From positions 62,001 to 126,000 of the forward strand of contig JAJKFJ010022898.1 of assembly GCA_027382625.1 (NCBI GenBank): DNA of 64,000 bases. The letters run 5' to 3'. Positions within the stretch are counted from its first letter, which is position 1; every line of letters starts with the position of its first letter. The notes beneath the pieces were generated by a model. It did not search any database and was not told the origin of the DNA. It was given only the letters and a program-made list of their open reading frames with translations. Source of the DNA: Tetmemena sp. SeJ-2015 (Eukaryota; Ciliophora; Spirotrichea; Sporadotrichida; Oxytrichidae). Positions 4,101-50,019 of the stretch are shown here, in pieces. The position numbers and the translations under genes are program-made.

Positions 4101-6408
4101 TTTTATAGTTCTTCTCCTTCACTTTCTGGTTTACAGTTTAGCTAATTCCCTTCAGTCTCTTTACATCTTCATCTATCCCTGCTCCGTCTTCTGTTGTGAT
4201 CCTCAGGTTATCAGTATTCTCAAGTTCATTAGTGTTTGCTAAAGTGCTGCTTATCTTCAGTTTCTAAGAGCTAGAGAACATCTTAGAATCCATTTGAGAG
4301 CTTAAATGCAGCTGCTGCAGCTGCTTCCTCTTTCATCCTCTACTCTCTCAGCCTCTCCTCTTTGATTCTCCTTTCCTCCTCTTCAATCTTCTTGCTAATT
4401 TATTCACAGAGAGATATAGACTTCTCGTTTTGATAGACGTTATCAGGTGTGCAGCACTCCAACAGCACTGGTCTCACATCAGGTATCACTGCTAGTAGCT
4501 AGAGCACTGGTATGAGCTCAAGTAACTTAGTGTCTGCCTTTTCATCATACCAAGAAAGTATGGGCATGCCATTTTCAGGCTAGAAAGAGTAGCTTTGAGG
4601 TGAGTTATCTATGATAATTATGTCCTGCATGCGCCTGCCCAGCTTGGCCATGTCTTTTACAAAAATACCATTTTTAAAAGTGCAGTGCTCTCTGAACAGC
4701 CGCTGAGGGGCGATGCCTTCAGGATCCAGGATATCCATCAAAGGATCTGCGTATTTTGAAAGAGAGGCAGTGAAGATTACTACCTCATAGATCTTGGCCA
4801 TCTCAGCTAGGAACTTTTAGCAGCCAGGTCTCACGAGCACATACACATTACAAACGCGCCCTTCTATATCGACTGGCAAGACTATGTCTGCCTCTTTGGG
4901 GGGCTTGAAAGAGGAGTGCACCAGAGTTTCATCTAAGTCTAAGACTAAAGTCTTTCTATGAAGCACCTCTGGCTTCTAAGGTTTCAAAAGGGCGGTATGA
5001 CCACCTCTGATGATTTCCAAATCACTACAAGTAGGGTTTAATCGTATCTGATATTGTGGAAGTAGATTATATAAGCTGAAGTTATTTAAAAATAGAGATT
5101 GTAAAAATCATAATATGCGGTGATCTCTATATATAATCCCCAGCATAGATATGAAGATAGATAATTTATTTTGTATACTTACTTTTTATTTTGGGGATAA
5201 GAAATGGGTTTGCCAGTTACTCCCACCACTTGAGGAGTTGACTCTCCTTGTTTTACTTGAGTGATAAGCCCCATAGCCTGAATGTCCCTGCTAACACCTA
5301 AAACAAAAAAGCTCGAAATATTATTAAAAAAGGCGTAAAATTTATTTAGCAATAGTATTGCTTTAATGGGCCAATTTTTGGAGTTTATTAACAAATGCAC
5401 ATTTTATGTGTATGAAAAGCGGAAGCAATTATGCTTTAAAAGCTTTCCTTAAAAATCTTATCCCCATTAATCTCGGTTCGTAATTGATTAATAATCCACC
5501 TTTGTCTAATGATCTCAAAGGACTTTCTCTCACCTCGTGAATATAAATATCAACTTACTGTGAGAATTTTGATGGGGCACTTTCTACAAATGATGATGCT
5601 GTGTTGGAGAGTTATTCGAGCTAGCGGCGTTATCTTAAGCATTAGATTGAGATATTTTCTATCCACTGTTGCTGTTCTAAAATTGTACATACTTTCAAAA
5701 AATGTAAGAATAAATGAATTATTGATAGTTGTATGTTCTGAAATTGCGAGTTATTTGGCTCGTTGCCACTTTCACTATTTATTCCATTAGTGAGCTGCTT
5801 TGTACTCGCATGAGCAGTCTTCGAAACTCTAAGAGCCTGCTACTGTATATCATTTATAGTCTGCTACGATTGCTTCTTGTACACGTTTATTTGGTGTGCT
5901 GTCTCGTCTTCCTCCTCTTATAATAGAAAAGGTGATCTTAAATTCAAGCACTATAACTATATGAGTTCATGAGGTTAATGCCGTTTTAAAGCAATTTGTT
6001 CTGCTTGGATTCCCTAGAGGCAAATTTATGAGCACGATAAGTTATAAAACTAGACCATCACACATATTCACTCCAGATTCATAGGATACAAATCATCATA
6101 TTATTCATCATCATAATCATCATCATTCTATCTAAGGATGATGGAAGTTGGTTATCTAAGTGAAGATCACGAAACTCATTCTATAAGTAATTCATATACA
6201 ACACTTTTTTAAACTTACTTGGCTGCACATGACTGCGTTCTTTTCATAGCATGTTGATGCTGTGCTTGGGTGAGCGACCTCTCTGGGTTCTCATTCGCTG
6301 AAATATCCTTATTCACTTGCTGTTCCACTTAATCTGAAAATAAAAACACACGTCCTAAATAAATGAACTAATAAGTTATGAATGGTAATGTTGATAGGCG
6401 GAGCTCAT
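1148..6408 (-). CDS. SCP/FCP1-type HAD protein phosphatase with long N/Q/S-rich arms
   Basis: Starts at ATG 6408 and ends at TGA 1148-1150. The catalytic core lies at about 4500-5000 and carries the HAD motif I signature [11 protein letters not shown], then [14 protein letters not shown] (motif II) and [14 protein letters not shown] (motif III), the order and spacing of small CTD-phosphatase/NIF-type enzymes that dephosphorylate Ser in RNA polymerase II or other proteins. The N-terminal arm is Gln/Asn-rich (exons about 6217-6408 and 5551-5940). One clear GT-AG intron is 5076-5182 and another ends at 5298. A very long Ser/Asn/Lys-rich tail (about 1148-4300) is cut by at least five IESs. Family members usually lack such arms. 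The phosphatase call is firm; the exact substrate is unknown, and parts of the tail (2250-4300) were not fully resolved into frames. Confidence 0.85.
1150..1201. other. IES at the stop codon, pointer AAATGTT
   Basis: AAATGTT at 1150-1156 and 1195-1201, 45 bp apart, in frame. The same TGA terminates the gene with or without removal, so only the last residues differ. Confidence 0.5.
1296..1332. other. IES, pointer AGAATAT
   Basis: AGAATAT at 1296-1302 and 1326-1332, 30 bp apart. Removal keeps the minus-strand frame and drops an AT-rich insert. Confidence 0.6.
1409..1495. other. IES, pointer ACTA
   Basis: ACTA at 1409-1412 and 1492-1495. The 83-bp excision moves the minus-strand frame exactly as needed and removes an in-frame TGA. 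Confidence 0.6.
1817..1867. other. IES, pointer AATTAGT
   Basis: AATTAGT at 1817-1823 and 1861-1867. The 44-bp excision fuses two minus-strand frames and removes a TGA. Confidence 0.75.
2120..2164. other. IES, pointer ATTAGT
   Basis: ATTAGT at 2120-2125 and 2159-2164. The 39-bp in-frame excision removes an in-frame TGA from the Ser/Asn/Gln-rich tail. Confidence 0.65.
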
Positions 6409-29704: not shown

Positions 29705-30243
29705 TGTTAGTTTAAGGAGGACCCTTGGTGAACACTATTTTAATGAAGGAGCCTATTCCTAGCACGTTCAGTTACTTGGGTGCAGTTGAAATGCTATCAC
29801 CTTTTCTAAAGACAGTTTTAGAGATTATTTGCAATACGAAATCGTATCAGTAATCAGATTTTCCCGAAAATATTTTCCAAGAGTACTTACCCTGCTAGTC
29901 GATATTCCACATCTAGGAAGCTACCGCTGACACCATCTCCAATCCAAACCTCAACCTCAGGAATGAATCTATCTTCTTTGGCCATCAAAATTAGGTGAGC
30001 GATTTCACATCTGTAATTGAGTCTTATGACTATCTCCTAAGGGAACTTGCAATAGCGAGCGCACTCCCAGCTACGCACATGCGGCTCAAACGTTATCATG
30101 CTCAGATCCTCGAGTGAGGTACCTTGCATCTCTGATGAAGCAGCCACGCATGTGAAAGGCACCCAAGTAAAGAGAGACTTGACGCGAGTCTTTTCTCGCA
30201 TCAATTCATACATGTCTTCTCTCGTCTGCTGAGTTAGTTCCAT
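29705..30243 (-). CDS. CEP104: CEP104-like ciliary tip protein, N-terminal part, inverted relative to the rest
   Basis: CEP104 binds microtubule plus ends at ciliary tips and centrioles. Likely start ATG 30243 (an in-frame ATG also exists at 30318). The N-terminal jelly-roll domain is recognisable: VAASSEMQGTSLEDL, SWECARYCKFPQEIVIRLNY, VEVWIGDGVSGSFLDVEY. An 85-bp intron is 29806-29890. The last segment (LGIGSFIKIVFTKGPP) ends in the pointer TGTTAGTTTAAG (29705-29716), whose reverse complement begins the continuing segment at 43063. Joined there, the frame continues as TNKNPCGQVGIALL, as expected for this domain. Confidence 0.88.
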
Positions 30244-36500: not shown

Positions 36501-38486
36501 GTAACAACAAAAATTCCGGGCATAAAAGCAGGAAGGAAGATATACTAGCTCTTTAAAGATCTCTTACTAGCGATCTTTGCAACGATAGGAACTCAACTGA
36601 TGAGGACATGCGGGCTCCTATTCTAGGTAAGAATCTAGCTCAGTTCCAGAATATCATGTAAAACTCTTCCAAGCCTTTTTAATTCAATCCTAAATTCAAA
36701 CTCCACTTTTTAACTTTTGATAAGATGAGCAGCAGTGGAAACTAGCAGCTCAATGATGACTAGATTTTGAGTTAGGAGGTTGAATTATTTAATCTTATAA
36801 ATTTGTAAGTTTCGCTTAGGATATTTTTTATTTTGAAGAGCTCAAGGCATAATTGAAAAAGCAGTAGGTTGAAGAGACTTCAAAGAAGAAGAATACTTCT
36901 TCATCCTCACCTTACACTCACTAGATTTAATTAAGAATAGTTCATGTAAATCAATTTAATTATGAAAGATAGTAGCTCCACCTTAGGTGACTAACTTCAG
37001 TCTCTAAAATAAAGGCCACCAGAAAACTTAAAATCAAGTCTAGGCTTCGACAATAACTATTCAATAAAAACCTTAATAGGCTTAGACTGGGAAGCAACTT
37101 AATCACCATCAGCATGCAAAGCATTTCTCTTAGCAAGTACCAAGCGCAACCACGAATTAAAACTCGCTTTTTAAACGCCAAAGCCAGGGCTCTTCTGTGG
37201 AGCAGAGTTCAATTGTAGTAGGAGATTCTCTCATTCATTAAACATTAAATCCTTTAGCTCTCTTTTAATAAGCTATTATCTTTAATTCAGTCTCCCTTGA
37301 TAGAAAACATAGAGCCAGATGAAGATTGGCAGAAGGCTAGGTAATTCGGCAAGCAGATAGAATCCATGCAGCTGGGCAGGGTGAGGAAGAAGTCCTTCTA
37401 ACAAGGCCTCTACTCATCAAAGCACGGCCACTCATCTTCAAAACAGAACCCTAACTATCACAACCATCACGGCAGCTCCAACTAAGAGTAGCACCTACCA
37501 AAGGAAGAACAGCAGCATTCAACTTCTTAATTTTAAAGAGTTCTCTCCAAGCTCAATAGTAGAACACAAGCAGCAACAACTTACACTCTCATACCACTAA
37601 TTCCAAGATCGTTGGCCCCTTCGACCCTAATAACTAGTCTCAATAATACAGCTGCCAACTCGAAACTCATCTCTGCCCAGTCCTCTAACATGATAATGGA
37701 TGATAGCTTTAAACTTTTTATGATGAGAGAATTTAAACACTGCAAAGAGAGTGCAGAAGCAGATTACATCAGCCAAGATAAGCAACTTCATCAACAAAAA
37801 TCAAGGATCAAACTCTATGCCCACCAGCAAGCAGCTCCAATTCACTGAAACTAACAAGTAACTTCAAGATGTGCTCAGAGAAATGAATCAGAGAGACAAG
37901 GAGAGAGATCTTCAGTTAAGCAAGAACAAGTCACTGTCTCAAAGTAATCAAAAGATAGGGCGTAAGAGCAACGCTCATTCTTAGTAAAAAGTGAAATAGG
38001 GATACAAAGTTAACCAGCCATAGAATAATGATAAAACAGGACTTTAACAACTTCTAGTTAGTAGAAATAACAAAGGAGGATTAGAAAACAAGGGAAGAGC
38101 AATTGCTAGTGCTGAAGGTGAGATACCTCAAGCCTATAGTGCCTACTGAGATGTTGAAACAGAAGAGTAGTATGATCCAAAGAGTTGGGAGCTTAGAGGA
38201 CGATGAGGTCTTAAGAATAAGAGAAGGAGGGGGAACAGCAAGTAAGATGAGTCAAAGCAGACAAAATGCTGCCCTTCCAGTAAAGACAATCTAAAGTTCA
38301 GAGGATGATGATGACTAGGGAGAAGATGATGGAATGGATAGCAAGCTCTTGAACGAAGGACATTCGAATGGAGCTGAGGAAGATGACTTTGAGATGGAGA
38401 ACTATAGATAGCGAGGAGATGACTCTGCCATCCAAAGTAGCTCAATCCTATAGTAATAAATTTCATTCGACCCATAAATAAGTTGA
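30504..38486 (+). CDS. DENN-domain protein with very long disordered tail
   Basis: DENN proteins are guanine-nucleotide exchange factors for Rab GTPases. ATG 30504 (MRGASQGTKGKPKAYQIEAV). uDENN-like ICFPEGYYVDVDFSERKLRN and EKKYLTSISYY are at 31490-31690. cDENN-like SLLYPLQWNFTNI is at 32540-32580. dDENN-like DNHTFFEKFLRTQAFINFIE is at 33270-33340. About 5 kb of Ser/Asn/Gln/Lys-rich sequence follows, ending EDDFEMENYRQRGDD...SILQQQ and TGA 38484-38486. Multiple IESs interrupt it; one of 14 bp (pointer ACTGA) is placed at 32579-32597. The apparent stop directly abuts the pointer of the next gene's segment, so the real 3' end may be elsewhere. The DENN call is good; the Rab target is unknown. 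Confidence 0.75.
32579..32597. other. Minimal IES in the DENN gene, pointer ACTGA
   Basis: ACTGA at 32579-32583 and 32593-32597, a 14-bp excision that joins LQWNFTNIST to EIPFYPG. Confidence 0.6.
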
Positions 38487-38939
38487 CTCTACATTTAACT
38501 AAACTAAGCTAAATACATAGCTACAAACTGCGACAAAATTTTCCATACAAAAGTTGAAGGAAGGAGGATGCCAGCCAATGGAGCTCTCATTGAAGCTATA
38601 ACTTGTGCCACGCAAACTAAGCCAGTAGTTGTAGGCAAACCAGAACCTTACATCTTTAAATCCTCATTTAAAGAATGAATAATGTAGGATATTATCTTTG
38701 AACTTCTGAGGAAGGAGCATGGGTTAGAAGAGAAACCTCTGGATAAGTTCTTAATGGTGGGAGACAGTTTAAAAACAGACATTGTGTTTGGCAACAACTG
38801 TGGAATAGACACACTAGTAGTACTAACTGGGAATACTCCAGAGGAGTTGGGTCGGAAATAGATGAATGAGCAAGTACAAATTAGAGAACTTGGAATCCCA
38901 ACTTACATATCCCCCTACTTTGGGTATAATGAAAAATGA
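38487..38939 (+). CDS. HAD phosphatase (phosphoglycolate/p-nitrophenyl phosphatase type), C-terminal half
   Basis: This begins with pointer CTCTACATTTAA (38487-38498) and continues KYIATNCDKIF, RRMPANGALIEAI, the motif III lysine in VVVGKPEPYIF, then motif IV VGDSLKTDIVFGNNCGIDTL and LTGNTPEELG, ending PYFGYNEK at TGA 38937-38939. A 42-bp IES with an in-frame TGA (38652-38699) is removed. These are the second-half motifs of the family that cleaves 2-phosphoglycolate and related phosphates. There is no start codon or motif I here: the N-terminal half is on the minus strand at 45226-45958 and ends in the same 12-bp pointer. Confidence 0.92.
38652..38699. other. IES with in-frame TGA in the HAD gene, pointer ATCTTT
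   Basis: ATCTTT at 38652-38657 and 38694-38699. The 42-bp in-frame removal gives KPEPYIFELLRKEHGL. Confidence 0.92.
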
Positions 38940-39241
38940 ACATATTATTTTCTCATTCTCCAAAATCAATAGACTCTTAAGAATATTTATTGACTGACCC
39001 TTAAAATTTTTAATGAGATTTATATTCCTCTCTTTGCTGCTCAAGTCTTCTTAGTTTATTCTAGATATTCCCATTTTAGAATACGATGAGAATTCAGTTT
39101 ATTTGATCTTACCCTGATTTATATTGCAGTCTCAAATTCCTCTCTCCCTACAGCCAGTTCCAGTTCCCTTTTGAGTTTAGATATTCCTAAAAAATAATTT
39201 GATATATCCACATTTCTGTATTTAATCTTTGACGAGGGTCT

Positions 39242-39440
39242 TCAAGAGCTCTTAAAGGAGGGAATTTAAATTTGTTAGTATCTCTTTTTCTCCATGTCAA
39301 TGAGTGTTTGGCGGGTATCATCATCCACAGGGGCGTAGGTGTAACTCTAATCATCCACATAGCTCCAGTTTACGTGTTCAATTGGCAAACCCATCTCTAT
39401 CAGGATCTTATCCACCTCTTCATAAACATAAGTTTTTAAA
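39242..39440 (-). CDS. Short C-terminal coding segment, unrecognised
   Basis: Minus-strand reading TYVYEEVDKILIEMGLPIEH, then NWSYVDDQSYTYAPVDDDTR and IDMEKKRY, ending at TGA 39242-39244. No start is visible upstream because the next gene (+) begins at 39522. It looks like the last exon or segment of a gene whose other pieces are elsewhere. No family recognised. Confidence 0.45.
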
Positions 39441-39521
39441 ATTACTTTTCATCATAATCTTCATAAATCAGATTTAAAATGAAGAGGAGAAGTAAAAATT
39501 TCAGAAATAAGGATTAAAATA

Positions 39522-40749
39522 ATGCTTGTGAATTTAGCAGGATAAGACTCCTTGCCTTCCTTCGATAAGAGCAGCTTAGTGATTGCTTGTAGCGCAGCTG
39601 GGCATGCACCTTTCATGGCTCTAGACTTGATTATCTTAAACGATCCCACCATGAAGAAGGTAGCCTACTACAAGAGTAAATACCTTGAGCCAGTCCTCTG
39701 CAATCGTTTATTTAAGATAATGCTTTCTCATAAGAATAAATTGTATTCATTTGATTAGAGAGAATGACAGTCTAAGCTTGAAAGAGATCAAGGAGGAAGG
39801 AGAAAAGCCAAAGAGAGGTGGAGATTAGAATGAGCCTGCTTTTGATAGCAGTATCGGAGTATTGACGATGCCAGTCAGAAGTATACCATTCTGAAGAGCG
39901 TATGCTGACTCTTCTTTACATAAGAGCTAGTATAAGTGAAGGGTGCATGAGGAGGTATGGAGATGAGCTCACTTCATTTGTTAAGAGAGAAGGCTTCGTA
40001 AATGTCAGCATTTTTACTGCTTCCATATCCCCCATTCGCAGAGATAGAGAATCTAATCGTCAGTAAGCAATATAAAGTGAGTAATTTTTTCCCTTTTAGA
40101 ATACCAGAGGTGATGGCTTACCTGAACAATTACCTCTACAAGAAATCGAAAGTGCATAATTACTACAAGCTCTATGGAATAAGAAAATTCGGATACTGGC
40201 TGGCTGATACTAAAGCTTCTTAGAATTATCTTTAGGAAGAAGGTTAGGAGTCAGATTCACTTTACTCTACTGCCAATCCTAAACACAAAAAGTACTCATC
40301 ATCAACCAGGAGGTATGTTCACAGGGAGCTGGACGAGTTAATGGCAGCAGGCATGGCCAAAGGTCTGTTGAAGGCTTTTAACAGAGTGGATTTACCATGC
40401 TTGCTGTATGTGATTTTCACTTGCGGTGAGTATGATTTCGTTGGAGGATACACCCTCTACTATTCTAAACATCTCTTTCAATTCAAAATATAAAAATTCT
40501 TCTCTCAAGTTATAGTTCATCCAAACTAAGTTAAATTAAAGCCAAGAAGAGAAGGAGGAAAATAAACTTGATGAAGTAGAAGAAGAGAAACAGAGTTAAA
40601 TTGACACTACAGCAACTAGAAGCCTTTCTGATTAGCTGGGCAAGGTAAATCTTCATGAATAGTCAGGCGAGGAGATCCACGAACTTCTATTTCAAAGTGA
40701 TAAACTCAAAGTACCCTACTACTGGAAGCAGATTGCCTCCTATTACTGA
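39522..40749 (+). CDS. PSMG2: Proteasome assembly chaperone 2-like protein
   Basis: PAC2 pairs with PAC1 to assemble the alpha ring of the 20S proteasome. ATG 39522 (MLVNLAGQDSLPSFDKSSLV), then ACSAAGHAPFMALDLIILND, KKVAYYKSKYLEPVLCN, LLYIRASISEGCMRRYGDEL, REGFVNVSIFTASISP, DLPCLLYVIFTCGEYDFVGG, ending KVPYYWKQIASYY at TGA 40747-40749, resembling the family's C-terminal Pro-x-x-Trp-x-x-Leu motif. A 37-bp intron is 40063-40099. Three IESs (39702, 39881, 40465) were resolved and each restores frame. An acidic insert (EEKEENKLDEVEEEKQ) precedes the end. Identification is from overall motif order, not a catalytic signature. Confidence 0.75.
39702..39765. other. IES, pointer AAT
   Basis: AAT at 39702-39704 and 39763-39765. 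Removal gives LEPVLCNDSLSLKEI. Confidence 0.75.
39881..39903. other. Very short IES, pointer GTAT
   Basis: GTAT at 39881-39884 and 39900-39903. The 19-bp removal deletes a TGA and gives MPVRSMLTLLYIRAS. Confidence 0.8.
40465..40529. other. IES, pointer CTAA
   Basis: CTAA at 40465-40468 and 40526-40529. Removal joins GYTLYYSK to the acidic segment in frame. Confidence 0.7.
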
Positions 40750-40883
40750 TATTCAACGTTGTCACTGTATTTTTCGTGCTTTATAAAACCTTAATTTAAT
40801 AAGAACAACTTTAGCGATTGAGTTATTATTATGAGCCATGAATAATTATTGATTTCAGTAATAATAAATTGTGAGGTTATAAA

Positions 40884-42945
40884 ATGTCTGCCAAGAATTT
40901 TATGAAGGATGCCATGAATACGGGAGTGAACACCTTCTCTCGAAACTAGTCCAACATCCTGAATCTGCAGCACTCTGCCTTCGACATCTCTAATCAGCTC
41001 TACGCCTTCATTTCATAAAAGGAGAAAGATTATTTTGTATGATAATGAATTGTTGTCCATTTCGTGGATGAACTCGTTTGAATTCATATCAGATGAGAGA
41101 AGTGATTCAAACGCAGTGGAGGGTAGTTGTCCCGCCGTGCAAGTTAATCACCCATAGCATTCCATGACTACAATCACATAAATGGCATGGGCTATGGCCT
41201 AAAGCCCTCTCTAGCATCAAACAAGGAGAGGTCATTCAATCATTCATGCTTTTTAATTACAAATGCAATCTAGTTAGCTATTTATACATGCATTGTGTCG
41301 AATATTATCATAGATTATCTAGTTGAAAACTGCTCTGGGTATCACTCCAGACTCGATCTTAGGCAAATCATTCGGCTCTCATACTTTGAAATAAAGCAGC
41401 CTCAAGATGAAGAGTTTATAAGCGATTAATCTGATTAAATTGATGCGGACGATTTGCTGGATACTTAACTCTTTCTATAACTGAAATTATTGTCTATTTA
41501 TACATCTTAATACTCATTCTTTAATAGAACTCATGATTTCTTACTCAACCCTCATTCACATCCACAGTAGCACGTTCACAAAAGCAGATTATAGCAGCAA
41601 CTCATGCTCACCAGAAGATAATAATGCTGGAGAGGGTATCTGAAAATAGCATAATTGGAGAATTCATGTAAACATAGCATGAACTCTCATCTGATAAAAG
41701 TCCAGAAAGACTCAAGATTAATCTTATCTGTGTTAATGTCTTGAAAAATGTCCAGGTAGAGATAGACTCAGAGATTTAATTAGTATGTGTGTTACATGTT
41801 CTTGATATAAATGAGATCTTGAGATCGCAAATGATGGAGACCAACAACTTCTACCAAAGGATTTATCATCAGCTCACCAAGGGCGATGAGCAGTCACCTT
41901 ATTCATAAAAAAAATTTAAACTGCACTCTTTAATCTTACCCTATAAGGATAAGAATCCCCTCTCTATTGACGAATTCATGTGGGCCTTCTAAACTGCATC
42001 CTCTCGGCATCTCGTATTCGATAACCAGGGTTCAAGTGAGTCACCACTCTTGATGCTTCTCCCACTTGTCGACATGATAAATCACTCGCCCACTTTCGAT
42101 CCAAACGTCGTTGTGCTGCCCTATGAGGATAAGGTGCGAGAAGAGAGCTTTGTTTTAGTGAGGGCGATTAAAGATATTCAAAAGGATGAGTAGCTTTACA
42201 TGTCCTATGGCGCACTTAGCAACAGTCATCTAGTGCAAAAGTACGGCTTCACCTTAGAAAATAATCCACATAACGTCATCTCTCAAGCTTACCCTCTGGG
42301 CAGCTACTGCAGATTCGCACTTCAAGAGGAGGGCTTAAAGCATAGTCTCTCACAGAAGCTTAAGCTTCCATTCATAGATCCTGAGCTAAATAATAGTTCA
42401 TAGCCGATAAGTGTATTTTTTGAGGTAGGGAAACTGAATATGAGCATGTGGTCTAATAGATTCAACTAGGAGGTGTTCAAGGCTTTGAGACTGCATTTCC
42501 TGAACAGTCAAATGATTATGGACAGGGGCGGCACTGATGCCTTCACCAGGATCTGTGGAGATTTCAGCAAGCCTATTGACAGGAATAATGAGGAGCTAAA
42601 TATATAAGTGTGAACAGATTTCCTCATTTTTTGAATTCTAGCTTTGCTATGAATTCCTTCTAGAGTCAATCGACAGGAGCTACTCTCAGCTGAAGCCCAT
42701 AGACTTCTATCAAGAAAAGATAGAGGCTATCAAGCACTCCCTCAAAATAGACCAAACAGGAGTGTAATCAGAAAGCCCTAGTTAAAATCAAAGACTCTAT
42801 CACGAATCTGCCAGCCATAGACTAATACAACTTGCTAAATGCATACAGACTTCAGATAGATGAGAGCAAGATACTCAAAGCTAACTTGGAATTCCTCAAA
42901 AAGAATAAGTCAGAGGCGGTCAAAAGACTCATTCAGTAATCATGA
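40884..42945 (+). CDS. SET-domain protein methyltransferase (SETD3/Rubisco-LSMT-like)
   Basis: ATG 40884 (MSAKNFMKDAMNTGVNTFSR). Weakly resolved N-terminal part with HDYNHINGMGYGL and ALSSIKQGEVI, like the start of split-SET domains. Clear SET core at 41960-42290: ASSRHLVFDNQGS, LLPLVDMINHSPTFDPN (the Asn-His-Ser cofactor motif), then LYMSYGALSNSHLVQKYGFT and ENNPHN. The substrate-binding C-terminal helices follow, ending FLKKNKSEAVKRLIQQ at TGA 42943-42945. It transfers methyl from S-adenosylmethionine to Lys or His side chains; the target cannot be told. Frame changes in 41000-41950 show further IESs not all placed. The N-terminal 50 residues could belong to a separate small gene, but spacing favours one gene. 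Confidence 0.75.
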
Positions 42946-43062
42946 AGAAGAAAAATTATGCTTCAGCTAAGTATCGAGGTCTGCGGTATTTTAATTTAAT
43001 TACTCTCAATCAATTAAAAAGAGATGAGTTGTTAATACCCATTTTCTTAGTTATTTAATTGA

Positions 43063-45132
43063 CTTAAACTAACAAGAATCCATGCGGGTAGGTTGGAATC
43101 GCTTTGTTGAAGGCGTGGGGTTAACCTCTTGGCTACTACAAAGGAGTTGTGAATGAAGCCACTCCCTTAAGAGGAGGGAAGGAAGAGGTGGATCTATTTT
43201 TTGTAAAGAGAGACTAAGCTTTCAAGAATCAGGACTATGAGCTCTAGCAATAATAAATTTATTGTGGTCAAAGATCTTAAAATAGTGTTCGAGGTAAGAC
43301 TATATAAATTATCTTTTCACTGTCTAATAATTGTAACGCTATTTGTAGATCGGAAATGACATCCTGAAACTCAAAAGGGAATAATTAAAATGTTATCCTT
43401 ACCTTATTAAATCACTCATATTTTATATGCTAGCAGCAAAGAGATAGTACGATGCTCTATATGAGACCACTCGTTATGAGGACATGATAATGATGGCACG
43501 GCCTTCAACTGCTCAACTCAGAGCTGTCCAATTGGCTGAAGAGGAAGACGCAAGAAGGAGGATGATGCTTTGTAAGATATAAATCCTTGTTTGTTTTACT
43601 TGAGATTAGAGAGGCAGAGAGAACTGGAAGATGAGGAAGCGAGAGCGAGGCGCATGATGGAAATGGACGAGCAGGAGAGACTTCGCCGCCTTAAGGAGGA
43701 GGAAGAAGAGAGACGCAGAAAACAGGCTGAAGATGCCGAGAGGAGAAAGAATGCAGCCGATAACAGAAAATCCAAAGTGAAGGAGACCTTTACCAATTAG
43801 AAGGGCAAAGACACTGACATCAACATCAAGGGAGATCCTCTTGAGTCAAACGATGGAGATATTGATCTGGAGCCTTATCTGAATCCCTACTGTCTGCAGC
43901 TGGAGGTAACGTGGAGAAGCTTGGATTGGAGGCACTCAGGAGAGCCCTATCAGATGGAACGCTGCTTGTGTGTGGAGTCAAGCTCTGGACAGCCTTGCAC
44001 TCTGATCAATGGAGACATAGAGAAAGTTCAGTTCAGGCCTTTTTGGAATATTCAACATAATGTTATTTTGAAATAAATAAACCTAATAATTATTTCGTAA
44101 TATCTGCAGGCTCCCCTGAAGAAAAAATACATAGGAAAGACGAAGCGTTTGTTCCTGGCTGCATGCGATGTGGCAACTATAGCTTGCAGAGATAAACTGC
44201 TATAGATTTACTATGTGGGACTTAAGATCCTGCAGTCTGCTATGGCCCCTCCCATCTGTGGAGATGATATCCCTCCCAAGATAATCAACAACGCTGTCAA
44301 GCCCTTCATAATAAAAAATAGCTTTATTTATTCATATTTGATTTTCCTTCATCACTCTTCTAATCGACAAGATAATAATTATAGTATAATTTATATAAAT
44401 TTGATGTTAAAGATAAGCGAGTTGAACTATCGTGCACGTGATGTGTCTTTGCATGCGCTTATCTCTCTGTTCCGCCACCCTGCAGTGGATATCAGATAGT
44501 TGATCGAAGGTATAATGGATATTACTGAGAAGGGACCCTCCCCTGACAAGGTGCAGTGGCGTATCGTGCTTGCTAGACTGGAAATACTGCTGCACATAGT
44601 CTAGGAGTTTAGAATCAACGACAAAGCCTGGGACTGGAGAGTTGTCTTCTAGAAGTTAACAATTAAAGTTTGATTATTGATTGGTGTGTTGAAGTTAGTT
44701 GCTCCTTCATTCTTCAATCACAACCCAGATGTGAGACTGATTGCGATTGAGGTGACATTGGAGATGTACAAGATCACAGGGGCAGAGCTAAAACGCATGG
44801 TCCAAGAGATAGACGGCCTTAAGCCTAACCTACTCCAGACTATTACATCAAATATAAAGCTAAAAGTATTTAAAGTAATTGCTATTACAAAGAGGATGAA
44901 AATAATTGATGAGGGTGGTGGTACTAAGTACGTCTTGGGATCTTAAGATCCAGAGGGAGGCATAGGCACGGCCAAGGAAAATGTAATTGGTGGTTTGGAA
45001 TAACTTCAAAAAGTTTATTCTTTAAATTCATAGTGAGAATAAGTGGCTGAGACGCATGAGTGGAGTGAATAAAGTCCCACTGGCGGAAGCAAGAACAAAA
45101 CTAATCAGAACTTTAATCAGTAGCCCTAGTGA
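43063..45132 (+). CDS. CEP104: CEP104-like protein, C-terminal part (coiled coil and TOG domain)
   Basis: It opens with pointer CTTAAACTAACA (43063-43074), shared in inverted form with 29705-29716. The rest of the jelly roll (NPCGQVGIALLKAWG) is followed by a charged coiled coil (RRMMEMDEQERLRRLKEEEE) and a TOG array: VKLWTALHSDQWRHRESSVQ, LNYRARDVSLHALISLFRHP, RINDKAWDWR, APSFFNHNPDVRLIAIEV. It ends near ETHEWSEQSPTGGSKNKT at TGA 45130-45132. IESs were resolved at ATAA (about 44310 to 44415), ATT (about 44660) and GAATAA (about 44998 to 45055). A frame break at 43890 fits either an 11-bp IES (pointer CTG) or a base error. TOG domains bind tubulin; the family acts at ciliary tips. Confidence 0.88.
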
Positions 45133-45225
45133 TCAGCACTATAAATTTAGGTTCAATTCAAGTCTAACTTTAAAATTAATCATTCACAAATTTGAAGAAT
45201 ATCAACTCTAGAGTGCATATGCTAT

Positions 45226-45958
45226 TTAAATGTAGAGCGTAGCGAGGCAAATCTTTCTGTAGCTGAGTGAGTAGCAGATTCCACTGACTACTGCCTTCAC
45301 GTCGGGGTCTATCTCTATCCTAGAAAACTCATCTGCACTCATAGAGTCTCCTTCCCTTTCTTCACTTTCGTTATCTGAGTTTACCACCTAGAATCCCTCA
45401 CTTCGAAGTGCATCTTTCAAACCTTTTTCTCCAATCACGTAAACCTTCTCACCTTAGGTAGAACTAAGATTTTAGGTTTCTTTAACATCAGCATGCTCAG
45501 TAAAAAGCTTCTTCAGATAATTGGCAGTAGCATAGGCACTCGTATATATCTAGGAGGATGGTATGAGTTTATCCAAATCGCCTTAAAATTTAGCAAGTTT
45601 CTCATTTATTACTTGCTCTGCTGTCTTTGAAGAATTGTTAGTGACCAGGAAGATATTATAAAAGCTCATATAGAAATATTAAACTTATTAGCATATATTT
45701 TAAGATCTTCTTAGTCTGAGAGTATTCAGGATTAGTCAAAATTGAACTGATAGCCTGGAGGGCATTAGGAATCTCTGTGTCTCCACACCACAGCACTCCA
45801 TCACAGTCAAACAAGAAGTAATCGTACTTGGCAACCAAGTATTCAAAGCTAGCACTAAACAAAGATAATAAGAATATACGGTTAAATTCAAACTAGAAAT
45901 CTACCTACTACGGAAGTTGCTCTCCACTTTAGACCACTATCTCTTCTTTTGCTTCCAT
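45226..45958 (-). CDS. HAD phosphatase, N-terminal half, inverted relative to its C-terminal half
   Basis: ATG 45958 (MEAKEEIVVQSGEQLP), an intron of about 80 bp (GTAG...TTTAG), then motif I YFLFDCDGVLWCGDTEIP with both catalytic Asp residues, motif II IFLVTNNSSKTAEQV, TSAYATANYLKKLF, KVYVIGEKGLKDAL, DPDVKAVVSGICYSLSYRK. It stops at LATLYIQ, encoded by pointer CTCTACATTTAA (45226-45237 on the minus strand). The same pointer starts the C-terminal half at 38487 (+). One IES (pointer AAGAT, 45650-45706) is removed. The frame across the join is continuous and the joined order of motifs I-IV is canonical. Confidence 0.92.
45650..45706. other. IES in the HAD gene, pointer AAGAT
   Basis: AAGAT at 45650-45654 and 45702-45706. 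Removal gives SQTKKIFLVTNNSSK across motif II and drops an in-frame TGA. Confidence 0.9.
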
Positions 45959-46089
45959 TAAACTCTTTCTCAATTTAAAATTAATGATTGACAATTAAAG
46001 AGATGCATAATTTTAAGCGATTAGTTAAGTGATCTCATTATAATAATAATTAGTGCTATAAGTTAATAATAAGAATATATCGCTTCAAT

Positions 46090-48530: not shown

Positions 48531-48704
48531 CTTTGAGTAGAAAATATCCATCGCTCAAATCATCAAACCCTCCTCATCATATTCCGATCTGCTATTACAA
48601 ATGCGATGTCAAGATATATCTGAATAGTACTTGCTGTAGCTTTTTGATTGATTTTTATAGTAATATATCTTAATTTCAACACAGCGTTAAATCTCTTAAA
48701 AGAT

Positions 48705-50019
48705 ATGGAATCCAGACTTGAGCAACTACTCAACCGATTTGAATCCCTAGTCAACAGACTTGAGGGAGCCGGCGGTGCCACTAGTGGCTAAGCTTCCTCA
48801 TCTACTGGAAGTGCCGCAAAATCTACTTCCTTGCCAAAATTGGTGAAGGACTTCGATAATGAAATGAACTCTAAGATCAAGGCACTCGAGGATGCTACTG
48901 CCTCTTTCGGATAAGAAGTCGTCTCAACCATTGTAAGTTGCTTTGATAATTCTAGTAGTCCTCTTTGTCTCATTCTTCTAATTTAGACTAAGGAATATGT
49001 GAAGATCCTTCTGAGCCAGAGAGACATCTTGATCACCATGAGCCAGAGTGCAAGACCTGCTAACTTCCAATTCTTGATTGCTCCCGTCTCTAAGGCCAAG
49101 AATGATGTGAAGGGTCTTAAAAATAAGGATCTCAAGCTCTAGAATCACGTCTAGACTGTGGCTGATGGCTTCGACCTCTTTGCCTGGTTTGCTCAGGTAC
49201 AAACTTTCCTCTCTGCTAATGATATCTGTAGTCTGACTTGAAGGATGTAATCGAGGACTAGCTGAAGCAGATTGACTTTTATGGATTCAAGGTGTTGCAG
49301 CTGAAGTAAGACCCAGACACTGCTTGGTACAAGGCTTACAAGGAAGTTGCTAAGACTTTTGTGGACTTCTTAGTTCAAAACGCAGATGACGTGGTCCAGT
49401 GGAAGGGACAGGGCAACGCTGAAGATGTGTTCGCCTCCACTCTTGGTATCTCAGAGCAAATTTTCAGAGGAGATTCAGGCGCAACTTCTGTAAAGAAGCA
49501 AGTTGAAGAGGTGAAGGCCCAAGCTGGCAATCTCTTTGCAGATATTACAAGTGGCAAGACCATGAACTAGAATAAAATTATCGTGAATAATCCATTTAAA
49601 AGTCTTCTCTTTTAAATATAATGAGGTTTTAGAATTTGGTACATGTGGAGAAGAATGCACACAAGAAGGACGGTCCACTCCAGCCCATTGAAAAGAAGTA
49701 GGTAGCTCCAAGACAACCAGCAGCTGGAGCAAAGGTGGAAGTAGTCAAGGACCCACACTTAAATATTAAATGCCCTATTTTCATAACTATAAGACCCAAA
49801 GACTGAATTCAAAATGAACACCTACTACATTTTTCAATCATTAAGAGTAATTTTATTATGAATTAAATTAGAATTTAATTGTAAGAAGATGCTTATAGTT
49901 TAATGCTTAACTCGTAGGAGCACTATGGAAAGGAGGTTTTAAAGTATTCAGGCGACCAACTAGAATCCAACTATGCTTTCGCTATGATCAAGTGCAAGGA
50001 CACCACTTTCTCAAAAAAA
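48705..50019 (+). CDS. CAP: Adenylyl cyclase-associated protein (CAP), N-terminal part
   Basis: ATG 48705 (MESRLEQLLNRFESLVNRLE), a Gly/Ala/Ser linker, then the helical folded domain: PKLVKDFDNEMNSKI, ILLSQRDILITMSQS, FYGFKVLQLKQDPDTAWYKA, FLVQNADDVVQWKGQG. Two GT-AG introns (at 48933 and 49197). After an IES (pointer TAGAAT, about 49567 to 49634) come a Pro-rich segment (KKDGPLQPIEKKQVAPRQPA) and the start of the CARP domain (EHYGKEVLKYSGDQLESN, FAMIKCKDTTFS). The coding region then stops dead in AT-rich DNA at about 50019. The remaining C-terminal domain is at 25914-26400 on the other strand. CAP promotes actin turnover. Confidence 0.88.

Follow-up and report, generated by a model that had tools for sequence, protein, structure and literature searches.

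Two interleaved scrambled genes, for a HAD phosphatase and a CEP104 homolog, in a probable ciliate germline locus

The 64,000-nt stretch of DNA analysed here (the window), which is part of contig C3534 (211,575 bp) in an assembly of 146 Mb and 5,213 contigs, carries a HAD phosphatase gene in four segments and a homolog of CEP104 in eight, interleaved on both strands. Together they very probably represent a scrambled germline (micronuclear) locus of a spirotrich-like ciliate. During macronuclear development, both genes would be rebuilt by inversion and by joining at short repeats, the pointers. The order and strands of the macronuclear-destined segments (MDSs), eight scrambled pointers, all exact, and a further two of the ordinary kind are established, and the map is common to both haplotypes save for CEP104 MDS1. 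The order of the products was taken from homologs, relative to which the coding segments lie out of order and orientation, the mark of a scrambled locus. A previous sequence-only reading had proposed for the phosphatase a scrambled germline gene that needs inversion, and this is the best explanation of the exact in-frame pointer junction, the ordinary internal eliminated sequences (IESs) in both halves, the ciliate code, the C4A4 telomere repeats, the second haplotype with the same map and the second, more scrambled gene in the interval.

Segments and pointers of the two genes

The phosphatase begins on the minus strand with MDS1 (45707..45958 without its closing pointer, from alignment to homologs), which has its ATG at 45958, bears the motif FDCDGV and holds a 54-nt GT..AG intron (45855-45908), whose 18 encoded residues are absent from the relatives P0001-P0003. 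The frame then breaks at 45706-45650, and taking out the 52 bp between two copies of the pointer ATCTT (45706-45702 and 45654-45650) gives KKIFLVTNN as in the homologs. This IES 1, counted with one pointer copy, occupies 45655..45706 on the minus strand according to the homolog alignment and haplotype comparison. MDS2 (45226..45654, minus) ends in the scrambled pointer p, CTCTACATTTAA (45237-45226). The same 12-mer, found a single time per strand in the window, opens MDS3 (38487..38657, plus, pointer at 38487-38498), which lies 6,727 bp from MDS2 in inverted orientation; both segments were placed by the exact repeat and homolog alignment. Within the C-terminal half, IES 2 (38652..38693, plus, including one pointer copy) is 42 bp long, contains an in-frame TGA and lies between copies of ATCTTT at 38652-38657 and 38694-38699. 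Its residues have no counterpart in P0001-P0003, and its excision yields KPEPYIFELLRKEH. MDS4 (38694..38939, plus), defined by reading frame and Pfam, carries the motif GDSLKTD and the stop codon TGA at 38937-38939. The germline form of the gene thus consists of four segments, with pointers of 5, 12 and 6 bp at the three joins.

Joining at CTCTACATTTAA produces the uninterrupted protein LATLYIQLNQAKYIATNCDKIF, which in the vicinity of the junction aligns without gaps to P0001 (SLYIQLNEAKFIATN) and P0002; directly across it, the joined protein reads LATLYIQLNQAKYIATN and P0001 reads ASLYIQLNEAKFIATN. On the rebuilt chromosome, the junction would carry a single CTCTACATTTAA between TTGCCTCGCTACG and CTAAACTAAGC. 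The joined coding sequence of 1,026 nt is open throughout in both haplotypes, and its product matches the Pfam families Hydrolase_6 (73.1 bits, cut-off 27) and Hydrolase_like (55.3 bits, cut-off 22), one in each half. In these two domains it resembles HAD phosphatases of the phosphoglycolate or 4-nitrophenyl phosphatase type, and it differs from them in having a coding sequence that the germline carries in separate pieces. The best relative in the protein database, P0001 (51% identity), is continuous through junction p, and the second is from Halteria grandinella (44%). We take the source name of P0001, 403341554, to be the GenBank number of a protein of Oxytricha trifallax. Nothing closer than 51% was found among about 5.8 billion proteins, and therefore the somatic proteins of this species seem to be absent from that database. 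The coordinates, strands and exact 12-bp repeat of the sequence-only reading (45226-45237 on the minus strand and 38487-38498 on the plus strand) were all reproduced, as was its in-frame joining. Its division of the gene into two halves on opposite strands also stands, but the segments number four and not two, because each half holds one IES, in addition to the 54-nt intron.

The same reading had seen two unrelated genes and part of a third between the halves. The two are there; the supposed third turned out to belong to a scrambled CEP104 homolog, seven of whose eight pieces it comprises. This homolog spans 29.7-45.1 kb and has seven exact pointers of 12, 12, 7, 7, 9, 15 and 13 bp. MDS1 (29705..30243, minus), mapped with homologs and by its exact repeat, starts with the ATG at 30243, has an 85-nt intron and ends in pointer 1, CTTAAACTAACA (29716-29705). 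The next six segments were delimited by exact repeats. MDS2 (43063..43193, plus) runs from pointer 1 at 43063-43074 to pointer 2, GAAGAGGTGGAT, at 43182-43193, and MDS3 (39281..39421, minus) from pointer 2 at 39421-39410 to pointer 3, AAAGAGA, at 39287-39281. MDS4 (43205..43245, plus) is bounded by pointer 3 at 43205-43211 and pointer 4, GAGCTCT, at 43239-43245. The shortest segment, MDS5 (39225..39251, minus), comprises 27 bp including its pointers, 4 at 39251-39245 and 5, GTCAAAGAT, at 39233-39225. MDS6 (43267..43381, plus), with a 55-nt intron, extends from pointer 5 at 43267-43275 to pointer 6, AAACTCAAAAGGGAA, at 43367-43381, and MDS7 (39029..39178, minus), with a 52-nt intron, from pointer 6 at 39178-39164 to pointer 7, AGCAGCAAAGAGA, at 39041-39029. 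MDS8 (43432..45132, plus), supported by Pfam PF21040 and homolog mapping, opens with pointer 7 at 43432-43444, contains the TOG region with partly mapped internal introns, and closes by frame reading with a TGA at 45130-45132.

Read base by base, the coding path therefore goes from 30.2-29.7 kb (minus) to 43.06 (plus), 39.42 (minus), 43.21 (plus), 39.25 (minus), 43.27 (plus), 39.18 (minus) and finally 43.43-45.13 kb (plus), with an exact inverted repeat at every one of the seven jumps. Together with p, all eight scrambled pointer pairs were verified as exact. Segments 1-7, joined and freed of three GT..AG introns, give a single frame of 877 nt with matches to CEP104_N and UVR (with the end of the query taken from haplotype 2), and the Pfam scan placed the TOG domain in the frame 43.5-44.7 kb. 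The minus-strand coding-like stretch at 39.0-39.5 kb is the middle of the same protein. When 10 of the 42 relatives found were compared by tblastn, all 10 matched both the minus pieces at 39 kb and the plus pieces at 43-45 kb. The minus piece at 30 kb was matched by 8 of them, P0122 and P0123 being without a match there.

The two genes are interleaved: phosphatase MDS3-4 lie between CEP104 MDS1 and MDS7, and CEP104 MDS2-8 between phosphatase MDS2 and MDS3. Moreover, CEP104 is arranged in the classic inverted odd-even manner, with segments 3, 5 and 7 at 39.0-39.4 kb on the minus strand, 2, 4, 6 and 8 at 43.1-45.1 kb on the plus strand and MDS1 apart at 30 kb. Along the germline DNA the pointers follow the order 1, p, 7, 6, 5, 4, 3, 2, then 1, 2, 3, 4, 5, 6, 7, p, so that seven inverted pairs are nested, the phosphatase p outermost and CEP104 7 to 2 inside it. 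The scrambled pointers (7-15 bp, n=8) are longer than the ordinary ones (5 and 6 bp, n=2), in a small sample.

The genetic code and telomere repeats are those of a spirotrich. Under the standard code only five open reading frames of at least 80 aa overlap 34-50 kb; the coding frames are open with TAA and TAG as Gln and TGA as stop. The C4A4 telomere pattern was found in 67 places of the assembly; as the pattern reads the same backwards, its built-in control is uninformative. C4A4 repeats open several contigs (C298, C586, C672 and C739 among them), which are possibly somatic chromosomes or transposon ends.

Second haplotype, chance repeats and rival explanations

A second haplotype is present on contigs C4992 (10,929 bp) and C4709 (12,607 bp), which are 96-97% identical to the window over long alignments and each hold one copy of the 12-bp pointer p in the same place and orientation. 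CEP104 pointers 2-7 are present as well, with pointer 2 at 11 bp (12 in the window) and pointer 6 at 12 bp (15 in the window), and the frame holds. A CEP104 intron measures 58 nt against 55 nt in the window, and IES 1 measures 54 bp against 52 bp, the frame after excision being unchanged. The haplotypes differ by one synonymous and one nonsynonymous base in the 205 codons of the phosphatase N-terminal half, and by three and two, respectively, in the 137 codons of the C-terminal half. The ends of the two contigs share exactly 127 perfect bases, as an assembly graph with k=127 would leave.

The 12-bp repeat of the phosphatase was not accepted as significant by itself. The interval 38400-46000 (7.6 kb) contains 14 exact inverted repeats of at least 12 bp (three are palindromes), of which 4 are the pointers described and the other 10 are without an assigned role. 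In 100 shuffles, such repeats averaged 3.84, with a maximum of 12. Since inverted repeats of this length are common here, they are meaningful only at junctions defined by homology. Among 200,000 random pairs of plus and minus positions in in-frame register, 1.5% shared at least 7 bp, 0.13% at least 9 bp and 0.003% at least 12 bp. The eight pointer junctions, each of which lies where homology sets it, are not due to chance.

Several points nevertheless weigh against a scrambled germline locus as drawn here. The joining is deduced from germline DNA. Right after CEP104 pointer 7, the window haplotype has one base fewer than haplotype 2 (43444-43445 versus about 2648 of C4709), and the joined frame shifts there; in haplotype 2 the frame continues across pointer 7 into segment 8, and the difference may be allelic or may stem from faulty assembly. 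Inverted repeats of at least 12 bp exceed the shuffled expectation even when the pointers are subtracted. The link between C4992 and C4709 rests on the 127-bp perfect overlap at about 40.8-40.9 kb. Finally, CEP104 MDS1 had no match in haplotype 2, and pointer 1 was checked in one haplotype only.

The overlap also bears on whether the assembly is a chimera between 38.5 and 45.2 kb, since it resembles what a short-read assembly graph leaves, and the joins may thus rest on short reads. Such an error is very improbable in our estimate: both haplotypes, on separate contigs, show the same order and orientation, and a chimera would not put eight exact repeats at junctions defined by homology. Chimerism, in the form that long reads would reveal, had been named beforehand as fatal to a scrambled gene, and the second haplotype speaks against it. 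A contiguous germline copy had been named as equally fatal, and none was found in the assembly. The joined phosphatase protein has seven matches in the whole assembly, six of them accounted for by the two loci in two haplotypes. The seventh, on C1880 (12536-13189), is collinear across the junction, with 34% identity by tblastn and 40% in the genome search, and has further interruptions; considered as an intact copy, it was rejected as a diverged paralog. No intact or joined copy of the phosphatase was found in the 146-Mb assembly. The joined junction p has no match there at up to 2 mismatches, nor has the reciprocal junction in a pattern search, and therefore the assembly shows no somatic copy.

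The C1880 paralog lends something to another possibility, that the segments are decayed fragments of a duplicated gene with a working copy elsewhere. We consider this highly unlikely, because the halves are complementary and overlap by the pointer only, the base differences between the haplotypes are few, a search of the assembly revealed no closer copy, and the stretches FDCDGV, TNNSS, GKP and GDSLKTD, which we take to be HAD motifs, are all kept. The probability is just as slight that the halves are separate genes, or are brought together by trans-splicing at the RNA level without DNA rearrangement, and none of the results speaks for it. The junction lies at a 12-bp repeat and not at GT..AG sites, both halves are interrupted by ordinary IESs with direct repeats, and CEP104 would require seven events of this kind, including one by way of a piece of 27 bp. 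Thus, a scrambled germline locus with two interleaved genes remains by far the most probable explanation.

Neighbouring genes and the shared hairpin

Between CEP104 MDS1 and phosphatase MDS3 lies a plus-strand coding region of about 32.7-38.5 kb, perhaps of more than one gene, with a weak dDENN match at its start (E 9.8e-5, 22.8 bits, under the Pfam cut-off of 26.8). Its last open frame (37995..38486, plus, by frame reading) ends in a TGA at 38484-38486. This stop codon abuts pointer p, and in the germline order the region thus has no separate 3' untranslated region; therefore, the 3' end of this gene is either inside the phosphatase segment or across the same inversion. Two genes lie between the two arms, with their ends estimated by eye: one without a Pfam match (39515..40768, plus, by frame reading) and a SET-domain gene (40884..42950, plus; PF00856, E 6.8e-8), whose domain lies in the frame 41.5-42.6 kb. 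Elsewhere in the window, an NLI-interacting-factor-like phosphatase domain (PF03031, E 1.3e-56) is found at 4229-5107 on the minus strand and a CAP N-terminal domain (PF21938) at 48648-49238 on the plus strand.

The phosphatase and CEP104 are tail to tail in both arms. This layout and the outermost position of p in the nest suggest a joint origin; the nesting of pairs 2-7 by itself is the ordinary look of an inverted odd-even locus. A full scenario, which we put forward tentatively and hold to be rather unlikely, is that the two genes were scrambled together. The seven nested inverted pairs would then form a single hairpin of 6.7 kb whose loop holds two other genes, and which would have arisen when a tail-to-tail gene pair underwent one inversion or inverted duplication. 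One recombination at the 12-bp pointer would both rebuild the phosphatase and give the upstream neighbour its 3' end. The reciprocal junction at that end would read AAGTTGA-CTCTACATTTAA-ATAGCAT. Under an origin by duplication and decay (Gao et al. 2015, as described in PMC9797194), each IES would be expected to resemble the MDS of the same number on the opposite arm. Residual similarity between MDSs and IESs on opposite arms reached p 0.05 in none of five pairs and none of six flank comparisons (1,000 shuffles; lowest p 0.095).

Relation to published scrambled loci

The locus belongs to a well-described class and fits published spirotrich scrambled loci. The closest known systems are the scrambled genes of Oxytricha, Stylonychia and Tetmemena, such as actin I with inverted MDSs (PMC2394655, PMC9797194), from which ours differs in the genes concerned and in being known from germline DNA alone. 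Odd-even return patterns and interleaving have been described before (PMC5940158). The former, as 'return word' loci, are like the alternation of CEP104 segments 3, 5, 7 and 2, 4, 6, 8 on opposite strands and its pointers 7 6 5 4 3 2 ... 2 3 4 5 6 7, whereas here the outer layer is the phosphatase pointer pair of another gene and CEP104 segment 1 stands apart. Interleaved loci require at least one MDS of each gene inside an IES of the other (Braun et al. 2018). Our locus shares this trait with interleaved and Russian-doll loci (PMC5940158, PMC9797194), together with the further genes between its arms, but with two interleaved loci it falls short of the five nested genes of Oxytricha. Longer scrambled than ordinary pointers have likewise been reported in Oxytricha, Tetmemena and E. 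woodruffi (PMC9797194). Scrambled loci with inversions are common: of the scrambled chromosomes, inversion-only cases make up 21.4% for Oxytricha and 69.4% for Strombidium cf. sulcatum (PMC10901763). None of the titles and abstract openings surveyed names this locus, and 'CEP104' was absent from the listed 10 of 18 papers in a text search.

In Stylonychia and Oxytricha, most ordinary IESs are removed first, followed by a proposed RNA-template-guided joining at scrambled pointers (PMC2394655), and the locus appears to fit this scheme. The ordinary IESs would be excised, each pointer pair would recombine with one copy kept, and RNA copied from the old somatic genome would serve as the guide for joining, which is the proposal made for these two ciliates. 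The products would then be expressed from somatic chromosomes.

Our analysis provides a map, exact to the base, of two scrambled genes interleaved in a germline genome, one of them a phosphatase without a close match in the searched protein database. Between the two haplotypes, two pointers (12 versus 11 and 15 versus 12 bp) and one IES vary in length while the joined frame is kept, and this variation bears on the minimum repeat needed and on the evolution of scrambled loci. Moreover, because the two scrambled genes share a hairpin, the idea that they arose together can be put to the test.

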